42,208 nt of DNA, taken from the NCBI RefSeq assembly GCF_003703475.1, contig NZ_RDQM01000018.1, positions 1 through 42,208 on the forward strand, read 5' to 3'. The notes under the pieces were generated by a model, which saw nothing but the letters and a program-made list of their open reading frames with translations, was not told where the DNA came from and searched no databases. Positions 1,744 to 37,294 of this stretch are shown one piece after another (the first letter of the stretch is position 1; each line of letters begins with the position of its first letter). Both the position numbers and the translations under genes were made by a program. This stretch comes from Allofranklinella schreckenbergeri (GTDB lineage Bacteria; Pseudomonadota; Gammaproteobacteria; Burkholderiales; Burkholderiaceae_C).

Positions 1744-1818
1744 TTCTATATCAATAGGAAATAAAAATACCCTGTTTCGGCAATTCTATACTTAAATCGA
1801 ATTTACTTTGATTTGACA
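1744..1818 (+). repeat. 75-bp AT-rich dispersed repeat, copy A
   Basis: First of seven copies in the window. The core CCCTGTTTCGGCA is on the plus strand; the outer arms are TTCTATATCAATAGGAAAT and CTTTGATTTGACAA. This is the most diverged copy in its left arm. It lies between NUDIX and thiL and overlaps the last codons of thiL, supplying its TAA stop. Confidence 0.8.
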
Positions 1819-2885
1819 ATCTGGGCAAAGTGATCGAACGAGGCCGACGTGAGCGCCATGGGCGCATCGGCTTCGTCCAGCACCGTCAGGCCCGGCGTTG
1901 CGGTGATGTGGCCGATGGGGTGGATGGGCAGGTCGCCACCCCGGCCATCGGCGCCTTGACCGAGCGCCAGCACTTGCGCATGCCGCTCGGGCGGGGCGGT
2001 AAACAGCAGCTCGTAATCGTCGCCGCCCGCCAGGGCAAAGGCCACGCTCTGGGCGGTGCTCCAGCCTGCCAACGCGGGGGCGCGCCACAGCTTGGGGGCG
2101 GTGGCCAGCAAGGCCGGGCCGCTGAGGCGCGCACCCACGCCGCTGGCGCGCAGGATATGGCCCAGGTCGCCTTGCAAGCCGTCGCTCAAATCAATTGCGC
2201 TGCTGGCTACGCCCCGCAGGCGCTGGCCCAGCACCAGGCGCGGGGTGGGGGCTTCGAGGCGCTCGATCAGGCGTGCCTTGCAGGCGGCAACTGGTTCGGC
2301 AGCCGATGCGGTGATCGATGCCTTGATTGCTGCGACGGGCGCTTCGGCTTCGTCCCAGGGCGGCGTGTTTTGCAACACATGCAGCCCGGCACGGGCCTCG
2401 CCAATGGCGCCGGTGACGTACACCCGATCCCCCGGCCGCGCGCCGCTGCGCAGCAGTGCCTGGCCTTGCGGCACTTGGCCAAACACGGTGATGTGCAAGG
2501 CCAGCGGGCCGCGGGTGGTGTCGCCGCCCACCAGCGGGCAGGCGCTGGCGCGCGCCAGTTGCTGCATACCCTGGGCAAATGCGCTCAGCCAGCTTTCGTC
2601 GATGGCAGGCAGGCTGAGCCCCAGCGTAAAGCCCAACGGCGCAGCGCCGCAGGCGGCCAGATCGCTCAAGTTGACGGCCAGGGCTTTGTGCCCCAGGCGG
2701 GCTGGGTCGGTGCCGGGCACAAAATGGCGCCCTTCGTTCAAGGTATCGCAGGAGATGGCCAATTGCATGCCCGCCGCCGGTTGCAGCAGGGCACAGTCAT
2801 CGCCCACACCCTGCACCACAGCGGGGCTGCGCATCTGCCAGTCAGGGCCACTGAAATAGCGGCGGATCAGGTCAAACTCGCCCAT
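1803..2885 (-). CDS. thiL: Thiamine-monophosphate kinase
   Basis: 360 residues beginning MGEFDLIRRYF, the typical ThiL start. An upstream in-frame ATG at 3071 would add 62 arginine- and alanine-rich residues overlapping apaG and is unlikely. ThiL phosphorylates thiamine monophosphate to the cofactor thiamine diphosphate in the cytosol. Visible PurM-like kinase signatures are GVGDDCALL (about 26-35, ATP and Mg2+ site), DTLNEGRHF (about 49-58), NLSDLAACGA (about 72-82), GGDTTRGP (about 118) and SDGLQGDLGH (about 228, Mg2+-binding). The family average is 320-350 residues; a slightly long segment around 165-190 (VAAIKASITASAAEP) accounts for the excess. The last four codons fall inside 75-bp repeat A. 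It follows apaG on the same strand after about 50 bp. Confidence 0.95.
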   Translation of the reverse strand: MGEFDLIRRYFSGPDWQMRSPAVVQGVGDDCALLQPAAGMQLAISCDTLNEGRHFVPGTDPARLGHKALAVNLSDLAACGAAPLGFTLGLSLPAIDESWLSAFAQGMQQLARASACPLVGGDTTRGPLALHITVFGQVPQGQALLRSGARPGDRVYVTGAIGEARAGLHVLQNTPPWDEAEAPVAAIKASITASAAEPVAACKARLIERLEAPTPRLVLGQRLRGVASSAIDLSDGLQGDLGHILRASGVGARLSGPALLATAPKLWRAPALAGWSTAQSVAFALAGGDDYELLFTAPPERHAQVLALGQGADGRGGDLPIHPIGHITATPGLTVLDEADAPMALTSASFDHFAQIVKSK

Positions 2886-2935
2886 AGGCAATGCGGATGG
2901 CAATACGGGGGCAATGCGTAGGCAAGCGCATGGCG

Positions 2936-3370
2936 TCAGTGCAGCACGCGCGGGCCGGGCGGCAACGACAGCTCGCGGGCCAGGGCCGCATCCGGGCGCT
3001 CGCGCGCGTAGGCGTCCAGCGTGAACTCGGCGATGGGCGATTCGAAAACTTGGCCTTCTTCTGTCACGCACAGGTAATAACCGCGCATGGCACCCGTGGG
3101 TGTGCGCAGTTGACAGGCGCTGGTGTACTCAAACGTCTCGCCCGGCTTGAGCAAGGGCTGCGCGCCCACAACACCCAGGCCGCGCACCTGCTCGGTCTGC
3201 CCATCGCCGTGGCGAATCCACCAATGGCGGGCAATGACTTGCCCGGCCTGCGGGCCGGAGTTGGTGATGCGAATGGTGTAGGCAAAGCGGTACAGCCCCT
3301 GCGCGGGGCGGGATTGCTCGGGCAGGTACTGCGTGCGCACGTCAACGTGAAAGGGGATGCTGCTGGCCAT
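2936..3370 (-). CDS. apaG: ApaG family protein
   Basis: 144 residues, a single fibronectin-III-like domain. Recognisable features are the N-terminal VDVRTQYLPEQS, the motif RHWWIRHGDG and the C-terminal segment TGAMRGYY(L)C typical of ApaG. The family is linked genetically to Co2+ resistance and Mg2+ efflux in enterobacteria and is often next to apaH or ksgA, but its biochemical function is unsettled; neither partner is present here. It lies upstream of thiL on the same strand. The C-terminus is about 15 residues longer than the E. coli protein (125 residues). Confidence 0.93.
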   Translation of the reverse strand: MASSIPFHVDVRTQYLPEQSRPAQGLYRFAYTIRITNSGPQAGQVIARHWWIRHGDGQTEQVRGLGVVGAQPLLKPGETFEYTSACQLRTPTGAMRGYYLCVTEEGQVFESPIAEFTLDAYARERPDAALARELSLPPGPRVLH

Positions 3371-3474
3371 GGACGTGATGGTAGAGCGTTTTGGGCGGGC
3401 GACTGCCTACTGGCCCCACTGCCCCACAAGCCTTTGCACGGGCACAGATGGCGCAAGGCATCACCCCGGGAGAA

Positions 3475-4374: not shown

Positions 4375-4553
4375 AACAGGCAATGAAGGCAGACAAAAAG
4401 CGCGGGGCTGCGAGTGTAGAGCGTCCGGCGCGCAGGCCGCCTTCGCAAAATCCCCAGCCCAGCAACCGATCTGATCGAACCACGGCACAATGGAATGCTT
4501 TGCGCCGCACCGAAAAGCGGCCTTTTTCTCTCCCCGCTTTTTACGCAAACGCC

Positions 4554-4823
4554 ATGAGCAACGCCCAAGAATCCATCATCGAATACCCACTGGAGTTCCC
4601 CATCAAAGTGATGGGTCTCAAGTCCGAAGCATTCATCGACGCCGTCAAGGCTATCGCTGCGCGCCACGACACCGGCTTTGACCCGACCACGGTCGAGCTG
4701 CGCGAGAGCCGCGAGGGCAAATACCTCAGCGTCACCATCACCATCACCGCCACCAGCCGCGAACACCTGGACGGCATCTATCAGGAATTGACGGCGCACC
4801 CACTCTCCAAAATGGTGTTCTAA
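4554..4823 (+). CDS. ybeD: YbeD family (DUF493) small protein
   Basis: 89 residues starting MSNAQESIIEYP. It has the DUF493 features IEYPLEFPIKVMG, the central ESREGKYLSVT and the C-terminal TAHPLSKMVF. The fold is an ACT-like alpha/beta domain and the molecular role is unproven. A position directly upstream of lipB (29 bp) is conserved in many proteobacteria and supports both calls, suggesting co-transcription and a link to lipoate metabolism. Confidence 0.93.
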   Translation: MSNAQESIIEYPLEFPIKVMGLKSEAFIDAVKAIAARHDTGFDPTTVELRESREGKYLSVTITITATSREHLDGIYQELTAHPLSKMVF

Positions 4824-4852
4824 GCCAACGCCACGCGCGCCACTTGCCCGTC

Positions 4853-5533: not shown

Positions 5534-5562
5534 CAAGCGCTCGGCACTCGCCCTCGCCTGGC

Positions 5563-5600: not shown

Positions 5601-5654
5601 ATTTCAGAACCAAGCCATCCACATTTGGACGGCTTGGCCTTTCACGCCTTGCGA

Positions 5655-8600
5655 TCAGGCAACGCGGCGGCGCAAACCCGCCACACCCAATGCCAAGGCC
5701 AGCAGCAGCAAGCCACCGAAGCCCAAGGTGGGTACGGGCACGACCGACGACGCTCCACCGCCAATCAGCGCACGTGTGCCGTTATTACCTGCGCTCAGTG
5801 CGGGGCCACCATTGCTGTCGTTAGCCGCCCCAACGCCGCCCTGCAACTCCAGCGGAGTGGACGGGATCTGGAACGCGCTGGTGGTGCACACGATCGTGCC
5901 GCCCTCCGCCAATGTGGCTTGCGGCGAACCAGGCGTGCAGCTCACAGTCGCTCCCGCAGGCAAGCCAGAGGTAAAGCCGCAGGCCACATTGCGCGCCACA
6001 CCCGGCCCATTGTTGGTGCAAGTCAGCTCACAAGTTGCCATAGCGCCCGAAGCCGTGCAGACCATGGAGGAGGTCAGGTCAGGCATCTGCTGCTCTTGCT
6101 CGGCAAAGTTGTTGCCTGCCGAACCACCCGCTTGCAGCTTGGCGATGGTGATCACGCTGTCGCTGGTGGTACCAGGGTTGTTGCCGCCATTGACCGCACC
6201 ACTGCCACCAGCAGTGTTGTAGGCATTGGTGTGACCAGCAGGCTGCTTCTCGGTAATGGTCAGCCCAGTTGCACCCACAGGGATGTTGCTGAACTCGTAG
6301 CTGCCGTCAGCCTTGGTGGTGGTGCTCACCGTCACGGGTGCACCGCCGCCAGGAGGCGTGTACGTCAGCGTCACGGTCACGCCGCCAATGCCGGGATCGG
6401 TGGCGTTGCCGTTGTCGGCCGTGTTGCCATTGCCTTCCACATACACGCGGCCAGAGACCGTGGTGACGGTGGCGGGCTTTTGCTCGGCAAAGTTGTTGCC
6501 TGCCGAACCACCCGCTTGCAGCTTGGCAATGGTGATCACGCTGTCGCTGGTGGTGCCAGGGTTGTTTCCGCCATTGACCGCACCACTGCCACCAGCAGTG
6601 TTGTAGGCATTGGTGTGACCAGCAGGCTGCTTCTCGGTAATGGTCAGCCCAGTTGCACCCACAGGGATGTTGCTGAACTCGTAGCTGCCGTCAGCCTTGG
6701 TGGTGGTGCTCACCGTCACGGGTGCACCGCCGCCAGGAGGCGTGTACGTCAGCGTCACGGTCACGCCGCCAATGCCGGGATCGGTGGCGTTGCCGTTGTC
6801 GGCCGTGTTGCCATTGCCTTCCACATACACGCGGCCAGAGACCGTGGTGACGGTGGCGGGCTTTTGCTCGGCAAAGTTGTTGCCTGCCGAACCACCCGCT
6901 TGCAGCTTGGCAATGGTGATCACGCTGTCGCTGGTGGTGCCAGGGTTGTTGCCACCATTGGCCGCACCGCTGCTGCCAGGGGTGTTGTAGACGTTCTCAT
7001 AGCCCGAGGGCTGGGTCTCGGTAATGCTCAAGTTCGTTGCACCTACAGGAACGTTGGTGAACTCGTAGCTGCCATCGGCCGTGGTGGTGGTAGTTGCCGT
7101 CACGGGTGCACCGCCGCCAGGAGGCGTGTACGTCAGCGTCACGGTCACCCCGCCAATGCCGGGATCGGTGGCGTTGCCGTTATCGGCCGTGTTGCCATTG
7201 CCTTCCACATACACGCGGCCAGAGACCGTGGTAACGGTGGGTGGGGGCGGGGGCGGCGTGCCGCCAGCTTGCTTCTCAGCAAAGTTGTTGCCCGTCGAAC
7301 CGGCTGCCGCCAGCGTCGCGATGGTGATCACGCTGTCGCTGGTGGTGCCAGGGTTGTTGCCACCATTGGCCGCACCGCTGCTGCCAGGGGTGTTGTAGAC
7401 GTTCTCATAGCCCGAGGGCTGGGTCTCGGTAATGCTCAAGTTCGTTGCACCTACAGGAACGTTGGTGAACTCGTAGCTGCCATCGGCCGTGGTGGTGGTA
7501 GTTGCCGTCACGGGTGCACCGCCGCCAGGAGGCGTGTACGTCAGCGTCACGGTCACCCCGCCAATGCCGGGATCGGTGGCGTTGCCGTTATCGGCCGTGT
7601 TGCCATTGCCTTCCACATACACGCGGCCAGAGACCTTGGTAACGGTGGCCTGCTGGCGCTCACCGAAGTCATAACCGGTGGCTTTGGTATTGGCTGCCAG
7701 ATTGATAGCGCTGATAGTGTCGCCAGCGACCGTGCCGCCCGCCGTGCCGGCCCGGTTGCCGGTGGTGGTGTAGTTTGCAGGCTGGGTTTCGACCAGCGAG
7801 TATTCGCCCGCTTCCAGATCGCAGAACAGATACTGCCCCGCGGCCAGACCAGAGGCAGGCACCGGGCACAGGCCGGGGCCGACCGCGTTGGCGGCTTCGC
7901 CATTGGTCGGGTTGTAGAACTTGTCAGCCGCAATGGCGGCGGTAGCTGTCACCGCAGTGCGATCGGGCATGCCCGTGCGCCGCAAGGTCACCGTCTGGCC
8001 ACCCAAGCCGGTGTCGCCGCCTGCCGGGTCAAAGCCTGTGGTGGCACCATTGGCATCCGGATCGACGAAGACCGTGCCCTGGATGCTCGATGCGTACACG
8101 CGCACCTGCACGTTGTTCGAGGTCACATCAAAGCGTGCGCCCGTGCCTTCCTGCGCTGCAGTGCCTGCGCTGCCGTGGGCACCGCTGAAGTTGTTGGCGT
8201 ACACATCGTCATGGCGCGAGCCGGGCGTATTGAAGTCGAACCGGAACGCACGGCTGGGCGCACCCGAGGTGAAGGGCTCGGTGTCTTTCATCAGCAGCGC
8301 CGTGGTGTTCTCAGGCACCGTCCAGTTTGCGCCAGCCTGGGTCGCCAGTATCCAGTTGGTGCTGCCGCTGTTGTTGGCACAGCCTGCCGCTGCTGGCACG
8401 CCCGGCGCGAACGCGGGCCAGTCGCCAGTGACGGCGGTGATGTTGCTGGAGCACTTGGGGTTGGTGTTGATGGTGGTCGGCAGGTCGGTCGTGTAATAGA
8501 CCTGATAGCCGGTAGCCGCAGGCGCGCGCACCTGGGTCACTGGGCGCTGGCCACTGAAGCTGGTGTCACCACGCGGCGGCTCACCGTTGTAGGGCAGCAC

Positions 8601-11354
8601 GTCGATCAGGCGGTGCTCTTCCACCTTCTCGTTGCCCACGTTCTGGTAGCGCAACTCCATGGTGAAGCCCGAGCCGATTTGTTTGACGGCATCGCCAATC
8701 ACCGCCTTCTGCACCACGAGACCGTCGATGGCGCCCAGGCGCACGGTGCGCGTGGCTTGCCGCTCGACCAGACGCTGGCCTCTCGTTTGATCGGTACAAG
8801 TCAGGGCACCGCCCGTGAAGCTGGCCCCTGGGGCGCAACCACGGATCTCTACCTGGTTGATCAGCGAAGCATTGGGGATGTTGCCCGGCGCATTAAGCAT
8901 GATTTGCGCTTGGAACTCCACCACGTCAATGTCCGCAGCCGGGCTGCTGGCGTTCACATTCGGCAAACGAATCTGCAGCGTGGAAGCGGCGAAAGTGGCC
9001 GATTGGTCGTCCAGATGGAAGTCTCCCGCCGGCACGGGCGCGCCGCCCCACTTGAGCGAGCCGCTGACAAAGCTCATACCCGCAGGGATGGTGTCGATCA
9101 GGATCAGGTCGTTCGGGATCGTCACGTTCGGCTGGTTTGACACCAGGCGCGGCCACAACTGGTAAGTCACGATCTGACCCTTGGTCTTGGGCACGACCGG
9201 GTTGTCGGCTGCGGGGCCGCCGGCAGGGTCAACGCCCTCAATGCCTTTGCGGATGCTGACGGACTGTGTGGACAGGCGCAGGCGGTCGCTGTAGGCATCG
9301 TCGCAGTAGCGGGCCGGGTTGGTGCTGGTCTTGCACGATGAACTGCCCGAACCCAAGAGCGTGGCATTGTGGTCGTTGCCCATGAAGGCGTGTTCAGAAT
9401 GCTTCCAGTTGAGGGTTCCGGGCTCGAAGCCGGACTCGACGGAGGTCTGATACAGACCGTAGTTGGGAATGATGCTGCCATCAGGCCAGGTAGCGCCGTC
9501 CTGCGGGTTGGCGGGCAGCGTGTTCAGGTGCACGAACATCTGGACACGACCACTCACGGGGATGTTCACATTCACCAGGCGGGCCGAGTTGATGAACGGC
9601 ACCAAGGCCGGGTTGGCCTCCAGCGCGCTTTGGGTGATCCAGCCGGAGGCCATGATGCCTGTGGTCGGCACACCGGCGGCAGCGGCAACGGCGCTCAGCG
9701 TGGAATCAGCGTTGTTGCAGCTGGCATCGCGCAGCAGGGTTTCATCGCCGTTGCCAAAGGCAGTAAAGCCGAACTGGACTTCCGCGTCCTCAGGCTGCCC
9801 ACTGGCCGAGCTGGCGCCGCCCGCATCGCCCGAATTCCTGTAGAAGTGGGCATAGCCGGGGCTGTGGTCCCTGTTGGCTGTCGTTGCCGGAAGCTTCTTC
9901 CATTGGTAGGGACTGTTGGCGCCCAGCTGGGGGGTGCCCGGCGGCGCAGTCCAGATCCCGTGGGTGGAGGGGTCGAACAGGTCAAGCTTGAGCTTGCGGT
10001 TGTCCCAGTGGTCGCACAGCGAAACCTGGGCGGCGTTGACGCCTTTGTTCTCCCAATACACATAGGAGTCGACGAAGTCGTTCGGCCCGATCAGGTCGTT
10101 GCTCATGCGGTTGGGGCTGTTGACCAGCGGCGCGGAGCGGCCCTTGCTCGTGGCGTAGAACAACTTCTGGAACTCGCCCGAGCAGACGCTCATGTTGTTG
10201 GTCGTCACCACGTTGTTGGCCGGATCGTCGCTGGCGTTGGGCACGCCCGACAGACCCGGGGCGGTGAGTTCCTCGATCCGGTTCTGCGGCGAGTACTGGC
10301 AGCTGGTGCCATTGTTGGTCGCCGTATCCTTGGGGATCCAGACGCGGATGTAATGCAGGGCCGTGGCATTGGCCGCGCCAGGCCATGTTCCGGTGACTTC
10401 GCCCGAGGTCAGCGGCGGGTTGGTGGTGGAGGCAGTGACGGTGACCGTGCTGCCCGCCTGGACAAAGCTGTAGGAGCCGGTGCCAGCGTCTACCGGCACA
10501 TTGGCTGGCACGCCGCCTGCGGGGAACGTGCGGTTGTTGCGCTCGCGGTAGCTTTCCACCCTGTACACGCAGGCGTCCGCGCCCAGGTTGCCGAGCGCGT
10601 CGGTATAGGTCCAGCCCTGCTGCAGCGACTCATGGCCCTTGGTCTGCGGGATGTTCAGGGCCACGCTGTAGAGCAGCGCCAGGCCCGTGCCAGTGGCCGC
10701 AGAGCTGCAACCGGCCGGCTTGTTGATCGCCCCGAGGTTGGCAATGTAGCGCTTGACGAGGTCGATTTGCGGCTTGGCCACCACGGTCACCCCGGGCGCG
10801 GTGGAGGTTGCGCCAGCGGTGTCTTGATCGGAAACGATCTTGCCGGTGACGCTGCCTAGCACGCTGCCGTTTTGAGCTTCGCTTCTGGTGCTGACATCAA
10901 AAAACAGCGTGCCGGACTGATTGGCGATAGGGCCATTGGGCGGGTTGGCACCGCTGCCAACCAGCAGACAGTCCACCGTGCGGCCATCGGCGCTGATGGC
11001 GGTGGCGGCATTGCGGCAGGTGCTCAGGCCGGCACTGGTGGGGGCAAAGCGAAACGGCTCCGTGGCGGGCAGGCTCACCGTGATACGAACGTTGTCTTGC
11101 TTCACAGGCGGCGGCGTGACTTGGTAGTCCACCTTGTAGCGCGCTTCGTCATTGGTGCACAGCACATCGTTGTTGGTATCCGCATCGAGCGTACAGGTAC
11201 CAGTGCCATCGTGTACCTTGGCCACGGTGATATTGAGTGCGGCCAGGGCCTGACTTGACCACACGCTACCCAACAGCAATAGCGACAACGCCGCCAGCCG
11301 CTGTCCATTGCGCCGTAATGAAACGGCGCTTCGTTTTCTTGGTTGAACCCTCAT
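5655..11354 (-). CDS. Large secreted/surface protein: DUF11, SdrD_B-like repeats, PTL-type C-terminal sorting tail
   Basis: 1899 residues from the ATG at 11354, preceded by a good ribosome site (AAGGAG). A Sec signal peptide is evident: basic residues 6-19, hydrophobic core 20-37, probable cleavage after ALA near 39. Residues about 40-870 are a DUF11/adhesin-type beta-rich region with many Asn, Gly and paired Cys. A DUF11 domain follows near 876 (VVQKAVIGDAV). SdrD_B/Cna_B-like domains come next: one diverged copy near 1086-1235 and four near-identical copies near 1236-1750, each starting SGRVYVEGNGNTADNG. A further DUF11-like domain lies at about 1753-1860, and the C-terminus reads VPVPTLGFGG, then a hydrophobic helix and RRR. 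The tail resembles IPTL-CTERM sorting signals handled by an exosortase, though the usual W is absent. Probably an adhesin or stalk displayed at the cell surface; the ligand is unknown. Confidence 0.85.
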   Translation of the reverse strand: MRVQPRKRSAVSLRRNGQRLAALSLLLLGSVWSSQALAALNITVAKVHDGTGTCTLDADTNNDVLCTNDEARYKVDYQVTPPPVKQDNVRITVSLPATEPFRFAPTSAGLSTCRNAATAISADGRTVDCLLVGSGANPPNGPIANQSGTLFFDVSTRSEAQNGSVLGSVTGKIVSDQDTAGATSTAPGVTVVAKPQIDLVKRYIANLGAINKPAGCSSAATGTGLALLYSVALNIPQTKGHESLQQGWTYTDALGNLGADACVYRVESYRERNNRTFPAGGVPANVPVDAGTGSYSFVQAGSTVTVTASTTNPPLTSGEVTGTWPGAANATALHYIRVWIPKDTATNNGTSCQYSPQNRIEELTAPGLSGVPNASDDPANNVVTTNNMSVCSGEFQKLFYATSKGRSAPLVNSPNRMSNDLIGPNDFVDSYVYWENKGVNAAQVSLCDHWDNRKLKLDLFDPSTHGIWTAPPGTPQLGANSPYQWKKLPATTANRDHSPGYAHFYRNSGDAGGASSASGQPEDAEVQFGFTAFGNGDETLLRDASCNNADSTLSAVAAAAGVPTTGIMASGWITQSALEANPALVPFINSARLVNVNIPVSGRVQMFVHLNTLPANPQDGATWPDGSIIPNYGLYQTSVESGFEPGTLNWKHSEHAFMGNDHNATLLGSGSSSCKTSTNPARYCDDAYSDRLRLSTQSVSIRKGIEGVDPAGGPAADNPVVPKTKGQIVTYQLWPRLVSNQPNVTIPNDLILIDTIPAGMSFVSGSLKWGGAPVPAGDFHLDDQSATFAASTLQIRLPNVNASSPAADIDVVEFQAQIMLNAPGNIPNASLINQVEIRGCAPGASFTGGALTCTDQTRGQRLVERQATRTVRLGAIDGLVVQKAVIGDAVKQIGSGFTMELRYQNVGNEKVEEHRLIDVLPYNGEPPRGDTSFSGQRPVTQVRAPAATGYQVYYTTDLPTTINTNPKCSSNITAVTGDWPAFAPGVPAAAGCANNSGSTNWILATQAGANWTVPENTTALLMKDTEPFTSGAPSRAFRFDFNTPGSRHDDVYANNFSGAHGSAGTAAQEGTGARFDVTSNNVQVRVYASSIQGTVFVDPDANGATTGFDPAGGDTGLGGQTVTLRRTGMPDRTAVTATAAIAADKFYNPTNGEAANAVGPGLCPVPASGLAAGQYLFCDLEAGEYSLVETQPANYTTTGNRAGTAGGTVAGDTISAINLAANTKATGYDFGERQQATVTKVSGRVYVEGNGNTADNGNATDPGIGGVTVTLTYTPPGGGAPVTATTTTTADGSYEFTNVPVGATNLSITETQPSGYENVYNTPGSSGAANGGNNPGTTSDSVITIATLAAAGSTGNNFAEKQAGGTPPPPPPTVTTVSGRVYVEGNGNTADNGNATDPGIGGVTVTLTYTPPGGGAPVTATTTTTADGSYEFTNVPVGATNLSITETQPSGYENVYNTPGSSGAANGGNNPGTTSDSVITIAKLQAGGSAGNNFAEQKPATVTTVSGRVYVEGNGNTADNGNATDPGIGGVTVTLTYTPPGGGAPVTVSTTTKADGSYEFSNIPVGATGLTITEKQPAGHTNAYNTAGGSGAVNGGNNPGTTSDSVITIAKLQAGGSAGNNFAEQKPATVTTVSGRVYVEGNGNTADNGNATDPGIGGVTVTLTYTPPGGGAPVTVSTTTKADGSYEFSNIPVGATGLTITEKQPAGHTNAYNTAGGSGAVNGGNNPGTTSDSVITIAKLQAGGSAGNNFAEQEQQMPDLTSSMVCTASGAMATCELTCTNNGPGVARNVACGFTSGLPAGATVSCTPGSPQATLAEGGTIVCTTSAFQIPSTPLELQGGVGAANDSNGGPALSAGNNGTRALIGGGASSVVPVPTLGFGGLLLLALALGVAGLRRRVA
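6096..7655. repeat. Four tandem ~384-bp coding repeats (SdrD_B-like domains)
   Basis: Units begin at 6096, 6480, 6864 and about 7272. The first three are spaced by exactly 384 bp (128 codons). The third spacing is 408 bp because of an inserted poly-proline linker (codons for PPPPPP near 7245). Units 1 and 2 are nearly identical to each other, and so are units 3 and 4. The two pairs differ mainly in one internal block (for example 6190-6310 against 6960-7090), while the rest is the same in all four. Confidence 0.9.
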
Positions 11355-14898: not shown

Positions 14899-14944
14899 GG
14901 GGATCGTCCTCTTGTTCTCAGGTGTCTGGTTCATTTTTTTCTAA

Positions 14945-15019
14945 TTACAAATCAGAGGAAATTAAACCTAATTTCTATCATGCCGAAACAAGGTTATTTT
15001 GTTTCCTATGGATTTGTAA
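14945..15019 (-). repeat. 75-bp AT-rich dispersed repeat, copy B
   Basis: Arms TTACAAATCAGAGGAAATTA and GTTTCCTATGGATTTGTAA; core CATGCCGAAACAAGG, so it is inverted relative to copy A. It lies inside the ttr operon, between ttrC and ttrA, starting about 47 bp upstream of the ttrA start codon. Confidence 0.88.
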
Positions 15020-15031
15020 CAATCTTGATTC

Positions 15032-17082: not shown

Positions 17083-17108
17083 TTAGAGCGCGTGATGCAC
17101 TTTGCGCT
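17083..17108 (+). repeat. Solo IS427-type terminal repeat
   Basis: TTAGAGCGCGTGATGCACTT followed by TGCGC matches the left end of the MITE at 919 over about 25 bp with two mismatches. No partner end is found nearby. It abuts the 3' end of the IclR-family gene, whose stop codon lies at its inner edge. Either an element was lost here or the end belongs to a rearranged copy. Confidence 0.7.
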
Positions 17109-22132: not shown

Positions 22133-22189
22133 GGTGTTGCCTCCTTTTTGGGTCAACGCGTTGGGAGCGATGGATGGCAGGAGGACTTA

Positions 22190-22264
22190 TTGCAAATCAA
22201 TAGGAAAATAAATCGCATTTTTTCGGCATGTTATGCCTACAGTTGATTTTTCATTGATCTGCAA
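22190..22264 (+). repeat. 75-bp AT-rich dispersed repeat, copy C
   Basis: Outer ends TTGCAAATCAATAGGAAAAT and CATTGATCTGCAA; core TTTTTTCGGCATG. It occupies the spacer between dctP and dctQ in the pmd operon, 37 bp before the dctP stop codon in window coordinates, that is just downstream of dctP in transcription. Confidence 0.88.
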
Positions 22265-22301
22265 CACTCCGAAGCCATCCAGGCGACACGTCGTGGGCCG
22301 C

Positions 22302-23461: not shown

Positions 23462-24418
23462 TTATGCGGACTGTTGCTGCAATTGCTGCTCCAACTGGTG
23501 CAGTACGCGATAGCAGGGCAGCACCTGGTGCACGCTGGCATTGGGTTCGCGGCCCTCGCGGATGGCGGCGAAGAACTCGCGGTCTTGCAGCTCGATGCCG
23601 TTCATGGAGACATCGACTTGGGACACATCGATAGGCTCCTCCTTGCCGTTGACCAAATCGTCGTAGCGCGCGATGTAGGTGGCGCTGTCGCCGATGTAGC
23701 GGAAGAACGTGCCCAGCGGGCCGTCGTTGTTGAAGCTCAGCGAGAGCGTGCAAATGGCGCCGCTGGCGCTTTTGAGCTGGATGGACATATCCATGGCAAT
23801 GCCCAGCGTGGGGTGGATAGGCCCTTGCATGGCGTGCGCCTGCACGATTTCACCAGCCTGGTAGGCAAACAAATCCACCGTGTGCGCGGCGTGGTGCCAG
23901 AGCAGGTGATCGGTCCAGCTACGCGGCTGGCCCAGCGCGTTGGTGTTGGTGCGGCGGAAGAAATAGGTCTGCACATCCATTTGCTGGATGTTGAATTGCC
24001 CGGCCTTGATTTGCCGGTGCACGAACTGGTGGCTGGGGTTGAAGCGGCGGGTATGGCCGCACATGGCCACCAGCCCGGTTTGCTTTTGCAGCGCGGCCAC
24101 GGCCTCGGCGTCGGCCAGGCTGTCGGCCAGGGGGATTTCCACCTGCACATGCTTGCCTGCCTTGAGCGCGGCCTGCGCCTGCGCGGCGTGCATTTGCGTG
24201 GGCGTGCAGAGGATGACGGCATCCAGCCCCGGCAGGGCCAGGGCTTCGTCCAGATCGGTGGTGACGTGGCCGATGCCGTATTTCTGGGCCACGGCCTGGG
24301 TTTTCTCCAGCTCGCGGCCGATGAGGGACACCACTTGCACATCGGGGATGTTTTTGATGCCATCCAGATGCTTGATGCCAAAAGCGCCTGCGCCTGCCAG
24401 CGCGACTTTGATCGTCAT
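23462..24418 (-). CDS. pmdC: 4-Carboxy-2-hydroxymuconate-6-semialdehyde dehydrogenase
   Basis: 318 residues of the Gfo/Idh/MocA fold. The N-terminal Rossmann motif is GAGAFG (residues 9-14); HVQVEIPLADS corresponds to the E-x-P motif at the nicotinamide/substrate interface. CGHTRRFNPSH and FFRRTNTNALGQPRSW resemble LigC. The enzyme oxidises the hemiacetal of the ring-cleavage product, with NAD(P)+, to 2-pyrone-4,6-dicarboxylate. AAGGAG is 9 bp upstream of the ATG at 24418. It follows pmdB directly (35 bp), as in Comamonas pmd operons. Confidence 0.94.
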   Translation of the reverse strand: MTIKVALAGAGAFGIKHLDGIKNIPDVQVVSLIGRELEKTQAVAQKYGIGHVTTDLDEALALPGLDAVILCTPTQMHAAQAQAALKAGKHVQVEIPLADSLADAEAVAALQKQTGLVAMCGHTRRFNPSHQFVHRQIKAGQFNIQQMDVQTYFFRRTNTNALGQPRSWTDHLLWHHAAHTVDLFAYQAGEIVQAHAMQGPIHPTLGIAMDMSIQLKSASGAICTLSLSFNNDGPLGTFFRYIGDSATYIARYDDLVNGKEEPIDVSQVDVSMNGIELQDREFFAAIREGREPNASVHQVLPCYRVLHQLEQQLQQQSA

Positions 24419-28476: not shown

Positions 28477-28496
28477 GGCTGCTTCTTTCTGCTTTT

Positions 28497-28571
28497 TATA
28501 AATCAAAAGGAAATAAAATAACCCTGTTTCGGCATGATGGTATTCAGATCAAATTTCCCTTGATTGAACAA
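28497..28571 (+). repeat. 75-bp AT-rich dispersed repeat, copy D
   Basis: Arms TATAAATCAAAAGGAAATAA and AAATTTCCCTTGATTGAACA; core CCCTGTTTCGGCATGATGG, almost the consensus. It fills the spacer between pmdE and pmdF in the middle of the operon. Confidence 0.88.
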
Positions 28572-28578
28572 TCATCCT

Positions 28579-31198: not shown

Positions 31199-31237
31199 GG
31201 TGGGGACAAGGCCGCTGCAAACGGCCCCGGAATTGAT

Positions 31238-31312
31238 TTACAAAACAAAGGATAAAAAATACCCCCATTTCGGCATGATATGCATCAAATCAATTATCCA
31301 TTGATTTGAAAA
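31238..31312 (+). repeat. 75-bp AT-rich dispersed repeat, copy E
   Basis: Left end TTACAAAACAAAGGATAAAA, right end TATCCATTGATTTGAAAA, core CCCATTTCGGCATGATA. The only copy lying between divergently transcribed genes (MarR and glyS). Confidence 0.85.
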
Positions 31313-31362
31313 TAACCAGCAAAACCACGCCATCAAGGGCATGGTGGGGGAGTGTGCGCATG

Positions 31363-31380
31363 TTAGAGCGTGTTCTGAGC
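31363..31380 (+). repeat. Partial IS427-like terminal repeat
   Basis: TTAGAGCGTGTT agrees with the first 12 bases of the MITE/IS end. After that the sequence departs (CTGAGCC in place of ATGCACT), though a run of C follows as in the MITE. A relic or a related end; no partner was found. Confidence 0.4.
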
Positions 31381-31540
31381 CGGCCGCCCCCCGCTGCGGC
31401 TGTCTGCGGCCCATCCACAGCGACCGCCATGCCCTCAAATTGCCAGACAATAGCCGCTTTGCCAGCGTTTTGCCTGCACTCCCCCTTCCAACCTCACGCA
31501 CACGCCGCGCAGCCCTTGGCGCAGCGCGGCCCGAGTCGCC

Positions 31541-33673
31541 ATGACTGTTAACCAGAATCTGCTCGTCGAACTCTTTGTTGAAGAACTCCCGCCCAAAGCC
31601 CTGCGCAAGCTCGGCGACGCCTTTGCCCAAGGCATTGCCAGCAGCTTGCAGCAGCAAGGCCTGCTGGCCGATGCCAGCGCGGGCGTGACGGCCTACGCCA
31701 CGCCGCGCCGCCTGGCCGTGCATCTCCAAGACGTCGCCGCCAAAGCCGCCGACAAGCCCGTGACGCAAAAGCTCATGCCCGTCTCCGTCGGCCTGCAAGA
31801 AGGCGCGCCCACACCCGCGCTGCTGAAAAAGCTCGCCAGCCTGGGGCTGGACGCGCAAGCCGCAAACCAACTGCGCCGCCAAGGCGAAGGCAAAAACGAA
31901 GCGCTGTACCTGGACAGCGTGCAACCGGGCGCCACGCTGGCGCAAGGCCTGCAAAAAGCGCTGGACGACACCATCCGCCACCTGCCCATCCCCAAAGTCA
32001 TGGCCTACCAGTTGGAAACCGGCGTGGACTTGCCCGGCTGGGACAGCGTGCACTTCGTGCGCCCCGCGCATGGCCTGGTGGCCTTGCATGGCAGCGAGGT
32101 GGTGCCCGTGGCCGCGCTGGGCCTGCAAAGCGGCCGCAGCACGCGCGGCCACCGCTTCGAGGCCCAGGCCGATCCCATCGAACTGCGCAGCGCCGACAGC
32201 TACGCCGAGCAATTGCGCGATGAGGGCGCCGTCATCGCCAGCTACGCCCAGCGCCGCCAAGCCATTGCCGAGCAATTGCAGGCCGCTGCCGCGCGCATCG
32301 GCCAGGGCAGCCAGCCGGTGCAGGACGAGGCCCTGCTGGACGAAGTCACCGCGCTGGTCGAGCGCCCCAACGTGCTGGTGTGCCAATTTGAAAAAGAGTT
32401 TCTGCAAGTGCCGCAGGAGTGCCTGATCCTGACCATGAAGGCCAACCAGAAATACTTCCCGCTGCTTGATGCCGCAGGCCGCCTGACGCACCAATTCCTG
32501 GTGGTCAGCAACATCAGCCCCGAGGACGCCAGCGCCGTCATCGACGGCAACGAGCGCGTGGTGCGCCCGCGCCTGGCCGATGCCAAATTCTTCTTCAACA
32601 CCGACCGCAAAAAGACGCTGGAAAGCCGCGTGGAGGGGCTGAACAAAGTCGTCTATCACAACCAGCTTGGCAGCCAGGGCGAGCGTATGCAACGCGTGCG
32701 CGCCATCGCCAAAGCCCTGGGCGAACAACTGGGCGGCCCCGCGCTGGCCGCCGCCGCCGACCAGGCCGCCATGCTGGCCAAGGCCGATCTGCTCACCGAC
32801 ATGGTGGGCGAATTCCCCGAGCTGCAAGGCATCATGGGCGGCTACTACGCCCGCCACGACGGCCTGAGCGAAGACATCGCCCAAGCCATTGAAGACCACT
32901 ACAAGCCCCGCTTCGCCGGCGACGAGCTGCCGCGCGGCGAGGTCGGAGCCGTGGTCGCCCTGGCCGACAAGCTGGAAACCCTGGTAGGCATGTTCGGCAT
33001 CGGCAACCTGCCCACGGGCGACAAAGACCCGTTTGCCCTGCGCCGCCACGCGCTGGGCGTGATCCGCATGCTGGTGGAAAAACGCCTGCCGCTGGATTTG
33101 CCCGCCACCGTGGCCAGCGCCGCCCAGGCCTTCGGCCCCCTGCTGCCCGATGCCGCCAAGAGCAACGAACAACTGCTGGCCTTCATTTACGAGCGCATCG
33201 CCGGTTATTTGCGTGAGCTGGGCGCCAGCGCGCAAGAGGCCGATGCCGTCATCGCCGCGCGCCCGATGTGGGGCGAAATCCCCAAAGCCCTGGCCGCCGT
33301 GCGCGCCTTCGCCCAACTGCCCGAAGCCCCCGCGCTGGCCGCCGCCAACAAGCGCATCGGCAACATCCTGAAAAAAGCCCAGGACGAGGCCGATGCGCAA
33401 GTCAACCAAGCCCTGTTGCAAGAGGGCGCCGAGCAAGCCCTTTACGCCGCCATGCAGCAGGTGCTGCCCCAGGCCGAAGCGCAATTTGACGCGGGCGATT
33501 ACACCGCCAGCCTGCAAACCCTGGCCGCGTTGCGCGCGCCCGTGGATGCGTTTTTCGATGGCGTGATGGTCAATGCCGAGCAGCCCGAGCTGCGCCGCAA
33601 CCGCCTGGGCCTGCTCAAAACCCTGCACCAGGCCATGAACCGCGTGGCCGATCTGGCCCGCCTGGCCGCCTGA
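31541..33673 (+). CDS. glyS: Glycyl-tRNA synthetase beta subunit
   Basis: 710 residues, as expected for GlyS. It begins MTVNQNLLVELFVEELPPKA, with the canonical ELPPKAL start. VDSVHFVRPAHGL-type text (GWDSVHFVRPAHGLVAL), VVSNISPEDAS, RVVRPRLADAKFFF and the HD-like block KADLLTDMVGEFPELQGIMG with YYARHDGLSEDIA are typical. The C-terminal anticodon-binding domain is about 580-700. The protein charges tRNA-Gly together with the alpha subunit GlyQ. glyQ normally sits directly upstream, but here the upstream neighbour is a divergent MarR gene. Confidence 0.96.
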   Translation: MTVNQNLLVELFVEELPPKALRKLGDAFAQGIASSLQQQGLLADASAGVTAYATPRRLAVHLQDVAAKAADKPVTQKLMPVSVGLQEGAPTPALLKKLASLGLDAQAANQLRRQGEGKNEALYLDSVQPGATLAQGLQKALDDTIRHLPIPKVMAYQLETGVDLPGWDSVHFVRPAHGLVALHGSEVVPVAALGLQSGRSTRGHRFEAQADPIELRSADSYAEQLRDEGAVIASYAQRRQAIAEQLQAAAARIGQGSQPVQDEALLDEVTALVERPNVLVCQFEKEFLQVPQECLILTMKANQKYFPLLDAAGRLTHQFLVVSNISPEDASAVIDGNERVVRPRLADAKFFFNTDRKKTLESRVEGLNKVVYHNQLGSQGERMQRVRAIAKALGEQLGGPALAAAADQAAMLAKADLLTDMVGEFPELQGIMGGYYARHDGLSEDIAQAIEDHYKPRFAGDELPRGEVGAVVALADKLETLVGMFGIGNLPTGDKDPFALRRHALGVIRMLVEKRLPLDLPATVASAAQAFGPLLPDAAKSNEQLLAFIYERIAGYLRELGASAQEADAVIAARPMWGEIPKALAAVRAFAQLPEAPALAAANKRIGNILKKAQDEADAQVNQALLQEGAEQALYAAMQQVLPQAEAQFDAGDYTASLQTLAALRAPVDAFFDGVMVNAEQPELRRNRLGLLKTLHQAMNRVADLARLAA

Positions 33674-33695
33674 GCGAGAAGGCAGGAACTCCGCC

Positions 33696-34400
33696 ATGAC
33701 CGGCCCCGCCCCACTCTCGCCCACGCCGTTTTTTGCCGCCATGCTGTTCGACTGCGACGGCGTGCTGGTGGATAGCGAAGGCATTACCAACCAAGTGCTG
33801 CGCCAAAAGCTGGAGGAATCGGGCTGGCGCTTGAGCTATGAAGAATGCTTTGCCATCTTCCACGGCAAAGCCGTGCGCGACGAAACCGCCCGCATCGAAG
33901 CCGAAACCGGCCAGCCCCTGACCGACGACTGGATGGCCGATTTCTACGCCCGCCGCAACCTGCGCTTGCAAGCGGAGCTGCTGGCCGAGCCCGGCGCCAT
34001 CGCCACCGTGCAAGGCATGCACGCCCTCTTTGGCGGGCGCATCGCCTGCGCCTCGGGGGCCGACCGCTTCAAGCTCGGGCTGCAATTGCAGAAAGTGGGC
34101 CTGTGGGATTACTTTGAAGGCCGCGTCTTCAGCGGCCAGGAGCTGGCGCGCAACAAGCCCGCGCCCGACGTGTATCTGGCCGCCGCTGCTGCGCTGCAAG
34201 TGCCCACGCAACGCTGCGTGGTGGTGGAAGACTCCATCCCCGGCATTACCGCCGGCGTGGCCGCTGGCGCGGCCGTCATCGCCTACGACAAGCACGGCCA
34301 GGCCACCGACGCCATGCGCGCCGCAGGCGCCGTGTGCGTCATCCGCCACATGCAGGACGTGCCCCAGGCGGTGGCCATGCTGATGCGCGCCTGCCGTTGA
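33696..34400 (+). CDS. HAD-superfamily phosphatase (subfamily IA)
   Basis: 234 residues. HAD motif I is LFDCDGVLVDSEG (about 17-29), motif II ASGADRF near 116, motif III KPAPDVY near 154 and motif IV VEDSIPGI near 176. The helical cap between motifs I and II makes it subfamily IA (phosphoglycolate phosphatase or beta-phosphoglucomutase-like). The physiological substrate is not evident. It is 22 bp downstream of glyS and probably co-transcribed. Confidence 0.9.
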   Translation: MTGPAPLSPTPFFAAMLFDCDGVLVDSEGITNQVLRQKLEESGWRLSYEECFAIFHGKAVRDETARIEAETGQPLTDDWMADFYARRNLRLQAELLAEPGAIATVQGMHALFGGRIACASGADRFKLGLQLQKVGLWDYFEGRVFSGQELARNKPAPDVYLAAAAALQVPTQRCVVVEDSIPGITAGVAAGAAVIAYDKHGQATDAMRAAGAVCVIRHMQDVPQAVAMLMRACR

Positions 34401-34401
34401 A

Positions 34402-34476
34402 TTGCAAATCAAAGCAAAAATCAAATAAATACCAGCACGCCTAAACAAGGTGTTTATTTTTCCTTTTGATTTGCAA
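34402..34476 (-). repeat. 75-bp AT-rich dispersed repeat, copy F
   Basis: It has the most symmetric ends: TTGCAAATCAAAGC at the left and CTTTTGATTTGCAA at the right. The core GCCTAAACAAGG is a variant of GCCGAAACAAGG. It begins 2 bp after the stop codon of the HAD gene and ends 42 bp before the nitroreductase start. Confidence 0.85.
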
Positions 34477-34518
34477 GAATAAGAATTTCTGTTGTATTTT
34501 TCTGAAGAAAGGCCCTCC

Positions 34519-35190: not shown

Positions 35191-35430
35191 CAACGCACAG
35201 AGCGCAAAACACAGGGCAAGGCGCGCGATGCAGCGGGCGCGGCTTTGCAAAAAATGCCATCCTGGCGACTATTCGGGTTTACCCGGGCGCGCTTGCCCAG
35301 AAGGGCATGTCCGCGCGACTAGAATGAAAACTGTTGCAGTTTTTGACGTTTTCAACATGGGGCGGCGCGCGTGTGCAGCCGTCTTGACCAACCCAATGCC
35401 CGGCAGGGCAACTCAAGGAGATACAAGGAA

Positions 35431-36183
35431 ATGACCAAGGTCCTGGTACCCGTCAAGCGCGTGGTGGATAAAGACATGAAGGTGCGCATCAAGGCCGACG
35501 GCAGCGGCGTCGATGTCGCCAACCTCAAGCACAGCATGAACCCCTTTGACGAAATCGCGGTGGAAGAAGCCGTGCGCCTGAAAGAAAAAGGCGCAGCCAC
35601 GGAAGTGGTGGCCGTCTCCGTCGGCGGCGCCAAAGCCCAGGAAATCCTGCGCACTGCCTTGGCCATGGGCGCCGACCGCGCCGTTTTGGTGGAAACCGAG
35701 GACGAAGTGCAGCCGCTGGCCGTCGCCAAAATCCTCAAGGCCCTGCTGGACAAGGAGCAGGCAGCCTTGGTGCTGATGGGCAAGCAAGCCATCGACGACG
35801 ACTCCAACCAAACCGGCCAAATGCTCGCCGCCCTGGCCGATGTGCCCCAGGCCACGTTTGCCTCCAAGGTGGAAATCGCTGGCAATGAAGCCACCGTCAC
35901 GCGCGAAGTCGATAGCGGCCTGGAGACCATCACCGTCACGCTGCCCGCCGTCGTGACCGCCGATTTGCGCCTGAACGAGCCGCGCTTTGTCACGCTGCCC
36001 AACATCATGAAGGCCAAGAAAAAAGAGCTGGAAACGATCAAGCCCGCCGATCTGGGCGTGGACGTCGCCCCGCGCCTGAAAACGCTCAAGGTCAGCGAGC
36101 CGCCCAAGCGCAGCGCAGGCGTGAAAGTCCCTGACGTGGCCACCTTGGTGGACAAGCTCAAAAACGAAGCCAAAGTGATTTGA
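35431..36183 (+). CDS. etfB: Electron transfer flavoprotein beta subunit
   Basis: 250 residues, normal length. It begins [20 protein letters not shown] and contains [20 protein letters not shown], the AMP-binding [14 protein letters not shown] and [13 protein letters not shown], and the C-terminal [13 protein letters not shown], the docking region contacted by partner dehydrogenases. EtfAB carries electrons from acyl-CoA dehydrogenases to ETF:quinone oxidoreductase. An AAGGAG site and a further AAGGAAATG precede the ATG. Upstream 240 bp hold the promoter; TAGAAT at 35320-35325 is a possible -10. etfA follows after 31 bp. Confidence 0.96.
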
Positions 36184-36214
36184 GGCAACCGCTGAACTTC
36201 TGAAAGGAATCCCA

Positions 36215-37144
36215 ATGACCGTACTCGTTATTGCCGAACACGACAACGCCAGCCTCAAAGGCGCCACCCTCAACACCGTCACCGCCGCTGCCGCACTGGG
36301 CGAAGTGCATGTGCTGGTGGCCGGGCACAACGCCGCCGCCGCCGCCCAGGCCGCCGCCCAGGTCACAGGCGTGGCCAAAGTGCTGCACGCCGATGGCCCC
36401 GCGCTGGAAAACGCCCTGGCTGAAAACGTCGCCGCCCAGGTGCTGGCGCTGGCCGATGGCTATGAGCACATCGTCTTCCCCGCCACCGCCTCGGGCAAGA
36501 ACATCGCCCCGCGCGTGGCCGCCAAGCTGGATGTGGCGCAAATCTCCGATATCACCAAAGTCGTCAGCGGCGACACCTTCGAGCGCCCCATCTACGCCGG
36601 CAATGCCATTGCCACCGTGCAAAGCCAGGACGCCAAGAAGGTCATCACCGTGCGCGCCACCGGCTTTGACGCCGCAGCCGACACCGGCGGCAGCGCAGCC
36701 GTGGAAAGCGTGGCAGCCGTGGCCGATTCGGGCAAGAGCCGTTTTGTCAGCCGCGAAGTCAGCAAGAGCGATCGCCCCGAATTGACGGCCGCCAAGGTCA
36801 TCGTCTCCGGCGGCCGCGCGCTGGGCAGCGAAGAAAAGTTCAAGGAAGTCATCACCCCTCTGGCCGACAAGCTCGGCGCCGCCATCGGCGCCAGCCGCGC
36901 TGCCGTCGATGCGGGCTATGCCCCCAACGATTTGCAAGTGGGCCAGACGGGCAAGATCGTCGCCCCCGAGATGTACGTGGCCGTGGGCATCAGCGGCGCC
37001 ATCCAGCACTTGGCAGGCATGAAGGACTCCAAGGTCATCGTCGCCATCAACAAGGATGAGGAAGCGCCCATTTTCTCCGTGGCCGATTACGGCCTGGTGG
37101 CCGACTTGTTCGCCGCCGTGCCCGAGTTGACCGAAAAGCTCTAA
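36215..37144 (+). CDS. etfA: Electron transfer flavoprotein alpha subunit
   Basis: 309 residues. The C-terminal FAD-binding domain is intact: VSGGRALGS near 188-196, [20 protein letters not shown] and [20 protein letters not shown] near 246-265, ending [19 protein letters not shown] lies before the ATG. It forms the heterodimer with EtfB. The N-terminal half is very alanine-rich. Followed by an intrinsic terminator, a 75-bp repeat and an acyl-CoA dehydrogenase gene. Confidence 0.96.
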
Positions 37145-37175
37145 GGCTGCTCAAAGCCTCGGCACGAGCAATCTG

Positions 37176-37207
37176 AAAAATGGCATCCTTGGCGATGCCA
37201 TTTTTTT
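37176..37207 (+). terminator. Intrinsic terminator after etfBA
   Basis: ATGGCATC-CTTG-GCGATGCCAT forms a stem of about 8 bp, preceded by A5 and followed by T7; it starts 32 bp after the etfA stop. Confidence 0.85.
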
Positions 37208-37219
37208 CAGCCAATTAAA

Positions 37220-37294
37220 GCATCAAATCAAAGGAAATTTATCTTTAAGCCCATCATGCCAAAAAAGGCGCATTTCATTTCCTTTGATTTGTAA
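37220..37294 (-). repeat. 75-bp AT-rich dispersed repeat, copy G
   Basis: Left end GCATCAAATCAAAGGAAATT, right end CATTTCCTTTGATTTGTAA; core ATCATGCCAAAAAAGG, inverted orientation. It lies between the etfA terminator and the acyl-CoA dehydrogenase gene. Confidence 0.87.

Follow-up and report, generated by a model that had tools for sequence, protein, structure and literature searches.

A family of interspersed palindromic repeats with helically phased half-sites in Allofranklinella schreckenbergeri

Palindromic repeats in the window

The window is a stretch of 42,208 nt from the 2.82 Mb genome of Allofranklinella schreckenbergeri (G000), and contains seven copies, A to G, of an AT-rich palindromic repeat. 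Comparisons were made with the genome of a sister species (G008) and with other genomes, including congeners. Copy A (1744..1818, plus strand; profile match 1742-1820) shares approximately 17 bp with the 3′-end of a minus-strand gene (predicted from approximate gene calls), and its orthologous site in the sister species is occupied. Copy B (14945..15019, minus strand; profile match 14943-15020) is flanked by two minus-strand genes. The site of copy C (22190..22264, plus strand; profile match 22188-22265) is also occupied in the sister species despite divergence of the surrounding spacer. Copy D (28497..28571, plus strand; profile match 28494-28572) has the best score among the genome matches listed. 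Its left arm (28497..28519; TATAAATCAAAAGGAAATAAAAT) and its right arm, an inverted half-site (28551..28571), are delimited by sequence and conserved columns, and a directional core (28527..28538; TTTCGGCATGAT) lies near the dyad centre. This site is common to the sister species, and congeners G004 and G006 have no recognisable copy there. Copy E (31238..31312, plus strand; profile match 31237-31313), also common to the sister species, lies between a divergent gene pair. Copy F (34402..34476, minus strand; profile match 34400-34477) adjoins the stop codon of the upstream gene. Copy G (37220..37294, minus strand; profile match 37220-37295) is found 3′ of a terminator-like hairpin; the hairpin is common across the genus, and no recognisable copy of the repeat was found at this site in six aligned congeners (G001-G005, G007).

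The positions and orientations given in a preliminary description (A, C, D and E plus; B, F and G inverted) are correct, as is its account of AT-rich repeats in a GC-rich genome (25-33% GC in the copies vs 64% in the window). Its statement that copies lie only between genes holds for most of the family; exceptions include the overlap at copy A and 2 of 191 copies that lie deeper than 25 bp within a predicted gene. At Rfam gathering thresholds, the sole match in the window was a tRNA-Lys, and no family was assigned to the palindromes.

Family size and taxonomic distribution

A profile search yielded 191 matches in the 842 kb of G000 that were examined, which extrapolates to approximately 640 copies in the genome. 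The family thus numbers in the hundreds, as first proposed, and is not confined to a few copies; copies are denser than the proposed one per 6 kb, at about one per 4.4 kb. The 12-mer TTTCGGCATGAT has 51 + 52 occurrences in the genome, and its reversed control has none, which places the repeats far above chance expectation. At E ≤ 0.01, 100 profile matches were found in 442 kb of G000, and at E ≤ 1 there were none in 398 kb from 74 loci of other genomes (40 of 80 loci plus 34 congener loci, none from the sister species). Copy density in the sister species is similar to that in G000. Three congeners have 1-4 matches each, and no profile match was found in the remaining sampled Comamonadaceae. 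In a class-wide pattern search of 369 genomes, a sample that did not include the sister species, G000 alone had more than two matches. Plasmid and phage records, queried with copy D alone, returned fragments at chance level.

No published description of this family was found in the open-access literature, which was searched without the consensus letters. A match to an already catalogued family, which the preliminary description had allowed for, did not emerge: Rfam gave none in the window, and the REP length, REP foot and RAYT gene were sought without success; for ERIC the comparison covered length.

Architecture and helical spacing

Copies, approximately 75-80 bp long, have a directional core set between two inverted arms that resemble each other and span about 20 bp each. 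The half-site consensus is about ACAAATCAAARGAAAnAAAA, the core is TTTYGGCA, and the consensus ends read about TTACAAATC / GATTTGTAA. When each spacer is taken as the distance from one scoring-matrix start to the next (304 of 368 copies used), most copies have 30 or 31 bp from left arm to core and 26 or 27 bp from core to right arm, a difference of about 1 bp among copies; rare copies are longer by 10 or 20 bp.

The same distances recurred when spacers were left free, in a scan of 702 core matches in 1.56 Mb of two genomes with the arm sought within 120 bp. Among 313 cores with a strong left arm, the distance was 29-32 in 294 and 40-41 in three; three others lay elsewhere below 60 (19, 26 and 45) and 13 beyond 70. 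Of 292 cores with a strong right arm, 271 had it at 25-28, 10 at 36-38 and 11 at 70 or more, the intervals 29-35 and 39-69 being empty. About eight loci underlie the +10 class, and the extra turn is confined to the right side in 6 of 9 long copies. Contrary to the earlier claim, the length is therefore not fixed at exactly 75 bp: spacers differ by about 1 bp or gain 10 bp, and almost never change in other ways. Arm spacing at first seemed to have a 5-bp period, which proved to be mostly an artefact of TTGAT/ATCAA repeats within the arms; with longer matrices and a core anchor, the +10 class was all that remained. In a few arm pairs, the core is replaced by a GC-rich hairpin.

Position relative to genes and along the chromosome

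Copies are mostly located just 3′ of stop codons, in either orientation: 53 of those adjoining a stop point in the gene direction, 50 point against it, and eight lie beside two stops. Convergent gene pairs carry a copy in 47/82 and 60/94 cases (57-64%), and divergent pairs in 18/82 and 11/83. Constraint, described below, differs little among spacers between codirectional (22/636), convergent (11/336) and divergent (2/146) genes; as copies in divergent spacers are equally constrained, the 3′-end bias may merely mark places that tolerate insertion.

Close pairs of copies occur occasionally. Along the contigs, copy spacing matches random placement and there is no strand bias, which argues against a regular domain structure. 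Three contig pieces, two of them nearly all of one GC-skew sign, have plus/minus copy counts of 45/38, 19/26 and 26/20. These counts lack the replication strand bias of an oriented motif of the Chi or KOPS type, and this candidate was rejected.

Conservation between sister species

Of 45 sister-species sites that could be tested in G000, 44 are shared and one differs. Orthologous pairs were available for 39 of the 191 copies; the others lacked syntenic flanks in the sister-species stretches compared. Across these pairs, substitutions occur at 36/1118 positions in conserved columns (3%), 205/730 in variable columns (28%) and 195/998 in the flanks (20%). The difference is retained when bases are matched, at 25/883 vs 151/714 in non-coding flank for A/T, and 10/235 vs 145/1159 for G/C. 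The low rate in conserved columns, compared with variable columns and flanks, supports purifying selection on the copies in place. Together with spacer changes of one helical turn, this supports the earlier suggestion of selection on spacing or on a protein-binding site.

Copies are related in a star-like manner with no recent pairs (nearest-neighbour identity 0.769 vs 0.747 after column shuffling), and the family profile holds approximately 81 bits of conservation. Exact empty-site borders were not found: at C3:23197 the whole spacer differs in congeners G002 and G007, with flanking coding sequence 94-98% identical. Blocks of 94-98% identity with these two genomes point to gene exchange.

Alternative candidates: mobile element, RNA element or uptake signal

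The repeats could potentially be plain miniature elements (MITEs), i.e., non-autonomous inverted-end sequences that a transposase, now lost or unseen, amplified once and that have since become neutral debris. Their approximately 20-bp inverted terminal arms within about 80 bp, AT-richness, intergenic position, limitation to one lineage and star-like relationships are all compatible with this, as are the aligned congener sites without a recognisable copy. Neutral debris, however, would not be expected to keep its conserved columns in place since the sister split, and so few sites differ between the two species that the copies are nearly static. Among 368 copies, 210 could be anchored, and these showed no run of excess flank matches indicative of a target-site duplication, although a 2-bp duplication would escape detection. 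Nor was an autonomous parent insertion sequence with the same ends recognised among 24 solo half-site matches listed from 1.56 Mb of two genomes (by inspection of the list, in which some places were scored twice). A tiny mobile unit, as put forward in the preliminary description, is thus possible as the origin of the family but does not describe its static copies, which show neither target-site duplication nor recent pairs. We consider the plain MITE explanation unlikely.

Somewhat less probable still is an RNA element, in which the transcribed palindrome would fold and serve to stabilise 3′-UTRs, to be cut by RNase or to terminate transcription in both directions, functions reported for ERIC and Correia elements. 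The location of copies 3′ of stop codons favours such a role, as do mean folding z-scores of -2.1 and -2.5 on the two strands (183 of 191 copies), the few arm pairs in which a GC-rich hairpin replaces the core, and a modest arm covariation that exceeds shuffles and slid controls (0.139 vs 0.112; 0 of 500). In contrast, RNAalifold found no consensus fold in 37 copies, orientation is random, and conservation is equal in both directions relative to the transcript (83.8 and 83.7 bits; 58 and 63 copies). Wobble-compatible mispairs are not enriched (49 vs 49 the same way, 35 vs 57 the opposite way), and the restriction of the extra turn to the right side in most long copies also speaks against an RNA element. 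Predicted intrinsic terminators were compared in convergent spacers of up to 600 bp, longer or too-short spacers being excluded. They are no rarer beside a copy (17/43 with vs 11/30 without in G000; 26/54 vs 8/28 in the sister species), and copies were rejected as terminator substitutes. The RNA hairpin first suggested is not supported, the weak arm covariation aside.

A long uptake-signal-like sequence, sustained by biased DNA uptake and recombination and not by cellular function, is very improbable. The core and AT tracts at helical distance do resemble the plan of uptake signal sequences described in PMC12616744, and the blocks shared with G002 and G007 are a sign of gene exchange, but copies occur only about once per 4.4 kb, are almost absent from genes (2/191), and at approximately 80 bp exceed the up to 32 nt given there.

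Mobilisation as a REP/BIME family by a RAYT transposase is scarcely credible: the intergenic placement 3′ of genes, preference for convergent pairs and occasional close pairs recall the REPs of PMC3733652, but PF01797 (Y1_Tnp) has no match in either carrier genome (less firmly so in the sister species, the genome of which is about 80% complete), the consensus lacks the GTAG or CGTC foot, and the copies have separated arms instead of a single hairpin and are about twice the REP length or more.

A putative protein-recognition site

The observed copy number, placement, phasing, in-place constraint, static positions and orientation neutrality are best accommodated by lineage-specific, DNA-level compound recognition sites, approximately 640 in number, that are kept by selection and likely bound by a putative multimeric DNA-bending or wrapping protein with a presumed topological role. 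We hold this reading with moderate confidence. Near-immobile copies, retention of key bases and length changes of one helical turn together point to a gripping protein. Two similar inverted half-sites at a set helical phase would flank the directional core TTTYGGCA, and a multimeric protein would most likely grip each site by bending or wrapping the DNA. The family may have spread in an old star-like burst before the two sister species separated, placing copies into spacers, mostly just 3′ of genes, where they are now nearly static and retained by purifying selection. By analogy with REP/BIME, the elements would most likely act at gene borders, on local chromosome structure or on supercoiling.

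Several observations count against this reading. The approximately 81 bits of conservation exceed what ordinary binding sites need. With divergent-spacer copies as constrained as the others, the 3′-end bias may be no more than a mark of tolerated insertion. The weak arm covariation would equally fit an extruded hairpin, the GC-rich hairpins between a few arm pairs could favour a terminator role, copy spacing is random without strand bias, and the +10 class depends on about eight loci.

A bolder version of the recognition-site reading, which we regard as doubtful, is that the approximately 640 compound sites, with their helical phasing, constitute chromosomal landmarks of a new class: they would have arisen in one burst in one lineage and at once have depended on a lineage-specific architectural protein, hence their selection. 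If so, a repeat would have been recruited en masse, in a bacterium, into a system that organises the chromosome. Interspersed repeats of bacteria are commonly interpreted as mobile debris or RNA hairpins; in this family, the copies are frozen between two species with key bases kept. Should a protein bind them, they would offer a clean system for how repeats join chromosome architecture, because near relatives in the same genus lack the repeat or carry decayed relics of it.

Comparison with known repeat families

Correia/NEMIS, RUP and other bacterial MITEs are likewise short, AT-rich and lineage-limited with inverted ends (PMC2229807). The present family differs in that no target-site duplication was seen and no parent insertion sequence recognised among the solo half-sites listed, and in being nearly static and selected in place. 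Pasteurellaceae uptake signal sequences share the combination of a core with AT-rich tracts at helical spacing, but are described with a 9-nt core and a total of up to 32 nt (PMC12616744), whereas the copies here are approximately 80 bp and intergenic.

ERIC/IRU sequences are also longer palindromic intergenic repeats in many copies, and one genome is reported to carry as many as 711 (PMC10969869). Target duplication and TA ends are listed for them, and their RNA-level effect is orientation-dependent (PMC2229807). ERICs are 127 bp long and enterobacterial, and the approximately 80-bp family was compared with their published description. REP/BIME elements, for which a role linked to gyrase or topology has been suggested, resemble the family in their many palindromic copies, intergenic position 3′ of genes, abundance in convergent pairs and occasional pairing (PMC3733652). 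They differ in being hairpins of 20-40 bp with a GTAG/CGTC foot, while the present repeats are about 80 bp with separated arms, a directional core and no foot. By analogy, the best reading is that these elements would work like BIME or ERIC, a resemblance that need not imply membership of either family.

Structure and copy number of the element

The element is an AT-rich intergenic palindrome of about 80 bp, with two inverted arms around a core. The seven copies in the window had been described as all exactly 75 bp long; their positions and orientations are as reported there, but the left arm varies by about one base. In the 2.82-Mb genome of A. schreckenbergeri (G000) there are 103 occurrences of the core 12-mer and none of its reversed control, while a pattern of arm plus core is found 300 times against none for its control. 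A sequence-only profile (R1), built from 37 copies of which 30 were picked by exact core, matches 100 times in 442 kb and 91 times in a further 400 kb (191 in 842 kb), which extrapolates to about 640 copies in the genome. A whole-genome run with 150 of 1672 candidates scored reported at least 151 matches, and at E ≤ 1 the profile has none in 398 kb comprising 74 loci from other genomes. The sister species G008, whose assembly is approximately 80% complete with 4% contamination, carries 177 copies in about 716 kb after merging of overlapping matches, at least two of them residual duplicates. Its density is 247 per Mb, compared with 227 per Mb in G000.

By column over 100 copies, the outline consensus runs from a W-rich border and TT through the half-site ACAAATCAA(A)RGAAAnAAAA to the core TTTYGGCA, and then to TTTTYCTTTGATTTG, the inverted half-site right of the core. 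The 78 columns total about 81 bits (191 copies). The element has a direction because of its core, within which the dyad axis falls. Arm spacing was read from a free-spacer scan of 702 core matches in both species, with matrices drawn from the G000 profile matches. Where the left arm is strong (n = 313), it lies 29–32 bp from the core in 294 cases, at 40–41 bp in three and beyond 70 bp in 13, with single strays at 19, 26 and 45 bp. Strong right arms (n = 292) lie at 25–28 bp in 271 cases, at 36–38 bp in 10 and at 70 bp or more in 11, the last being neighbouring copies or chance; none lies at 29–35 or 39–69 bp. One of the 10 copies at 36–38 bp has an odd left arm and one an internal palindromic core, and a further copy has a spacer of 28 or 36 bp depending on the matrix. 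An extra helical turn is present in 9/304 copies (six on the right side only, three on both sides), corresponding to about eight loci since one orthologous pair was entered twice, and no half-turn class is seen among the copies scanned. Short repeats within the arms largely account for an early hint of 5-bp steps in arm spacing.

Genomic placement

Gene calls were made with a simple, purpose-made hexamer gene finder and are approximate. By these calls, 2/191 copies in G000 are intragenic by more than 25 bp, and the remaining 189 are found in codirectional (121), convergent (50) and divergent (18) settings. Copies occupy 47/82 convergent, 118/476 codirectional and 18/82 divergent spacers in G000, and 60/94, 84/386 and 11/83, respectively, in G008. 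The median distance is 22 bp to a stop codon and 99 bp to a start in G000 (31 and 109 bp in G008). Copies within 25 bp of a stop point along the gene in 53 cases and against it in 50, with eight beside two stops; the corresponding G008 counts are 49, 42 and seven. Spacing along contigs fits random placement in spacers, and strand bias along contigs is absent. There are 15 close pairs (<60 bp) where about five would be expected, including two pairs in which a single element was reported twice.

Copy G (37220–37294) lies downstream of a hairpin with a T-run (37179–37206), 3′ of the ETF-alpha gene. This hairpin is 96% identical over 28 bp in the congeners G002 and G007 and is visible in all the other aligned relatives. 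A very large predicted gene (5655–11279, minus strand) contains four tandem copies of a 384–408 nt unit at 6092–7567, which are 82–99% identical over 300 nt. Another repeat in the window, GC-rich and about 55 bp long, lies at 916–973 (minus strand), with partial matches at 17083–17108 (92%) and 31363–31388 (69%). With up to two mismatches over 30 bp, it has 21 sites in G000, nine in G008, five in G009, two in G002 and none in the other six congeners. It is possibly recently mobile, as its copies are nearly identical across sites and species.

Conservation and age of copies

For 39 of the 191 G000 copies, the flanks could be placed by synteny within the G008 sequence examined, and all 39 sites are occupied; one orientation flag is an artefact of merging both-strand matches. 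In the reverse direction, 44 of 45 testable G008 copies are occupied in G000 and one, whose spacer has diverged, is absent; of three cases flagged here, two come from this merging artefact as well, and the two tests overlap. The shared copies therefore predate the split of the two species. Across the 39 pairs, substitutions number 36/1118 in columns of at least 1.3 bits, 168/1065 in middle columns and 205/730 below 0.6 bits, compared with 195/998 in the flanks (13 of 15 bp each side). Base-matched against a longer non-coding flank, conserved columns show 25/883 versus 151/714 at A/T and 10/235 versus 145/1159 at G/C. Profile selection of the G000 copies lowers divergence somewhat, but alone cannot yield a nine-fold drop, because no G008 copy was discarded for mismatch. 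Paralogues within the family are barely closer to their nearest neighbour than shuffled ones (identity 0.769 versus 0.747; best pair 0.85), and this near-absent family tree suggests an old, star-like burst.

Distribution among genomes

Core matches in the ten-genome genus set number 103 in G000, 73 in G008 and 0 or 1 in each other genome. Scoring 150 candidates per genome with the profile gives, at E ≤ 0.01, four matches in G007, one in G002, one in G009 and none in G001 or G003–G006. At E ≤ 10 there are three in G002, six in G007 (one a second-strand report of one copy) and one in G009; two G007 copies and the single G009 copy look intact by score, and the remaining G002 and G007 matches look decayed or due to chance. 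More widely, G000 alone exceeds six core matches among 299 sampled family genomes and two pattern matches among 369 class genomes, G008 lying outside both samples. Under stricter filters, and with 23 candidates per genome scored, 200 family genomes yield profile matches at E ≤ 1e-4 only in G000 and G007. Among named organisms, Vandammella animalimorsus is the closest by ETF-alpha (89% identity).

Four-fold-site divergence between G000 and G008 is 0.086 (80 genes) or 0.115 (five window genes), and 0.22 to G002, G007 and G009 (one to three genes). A burst later than the divergence of these three would fall in a short interval, and an earlier one would mean that they have lost nearly all copies. 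At the G000 junction C3:21029 (L283:1029–1106), G002 (L280:9777–9820) and G007 (L281:9862–9907) hold a decayed relic adjoining nearly identical coding sequence, and an intact G007 copy at C18:120904 occupies the site of the G000 copy at C3:52108. Blocks of 94–98% identity link G000 (C3:13391–27027; L282–L285) with L280 and L281, although three other genes differ by 22% at four-fold sites; the two spacers examined within it have nonetheless diverged. The blocks look like gene exchange between species. Such exchange may have carried copies between G000 and G002/G007, so that both gain and loss of copies fit these observations.

Mode of action

The arms are phased on the helix, copies are constrained in place at nearly static positions, and conservation is independent of transcript direction, being equal in both orientations among 121 codirectional copies. 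On balance, recognition most likely takes place at the DNA level. A multimeric protein would grip arms and core on one face and would bend or wrap the DNA, and the complex would matter at most copies; by analogy with REP/BIME, it may act at gene borders, on supercoiling or as an insulator. A mutation rate lowered by a protein covering the DNA would produce a similar pattern, and in that case too a DNA-binding factor would be implied.

Covariation across 17 arm pairs in 100 copies (0.139 versus 0.112 shuffled, 0/500, and above slid controls) counts against a pure two-half-site model, although relatedness among copies can produce such a signal; a DNA hairpin is possible. An RNA structure would draw on the same covariation and on the more stable folding of single copies than of their shuffled versions (mean z −2.1 for one strand and −2.5 for the other; n = 183), a property expected of any inverted repeat. 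RNAalifold gives no consensus structure for 37 copies, and RNA-tolerable mispairs are not in excess in 121 codirectional copies (84 tolerable versus 106 not). A few arm pairs flank a GC-rich, terminator-like hairpin in place of the usual core, among them the arm-like half-sites in G008 at L124:4783–4862 (G008_C33:64783–64862), near 23842 in G008_C75 and near 32120 in G008_C84; these pairs could indicate a link with terminators. Function tied to 3′ ends alone is disfavoured, because copies in divergent spacers are equally constrained (2/146 substitutions).

Comparison with known repeat families

No Rfam family matches the element within the window, plasmid and phage records gave chance fragments only with one copy as query, and no published description was found in the open-access literature, searched without the consensus letters as query. 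The element is not assigned to ERIC, from which it is set apart by description rather than by sequence comparison. It is kept apart from REP and MITE because defining features of both were tested and do not hold for it, and it is filed as a form of a known kind, the interspersed intergenic palindromic repeat.
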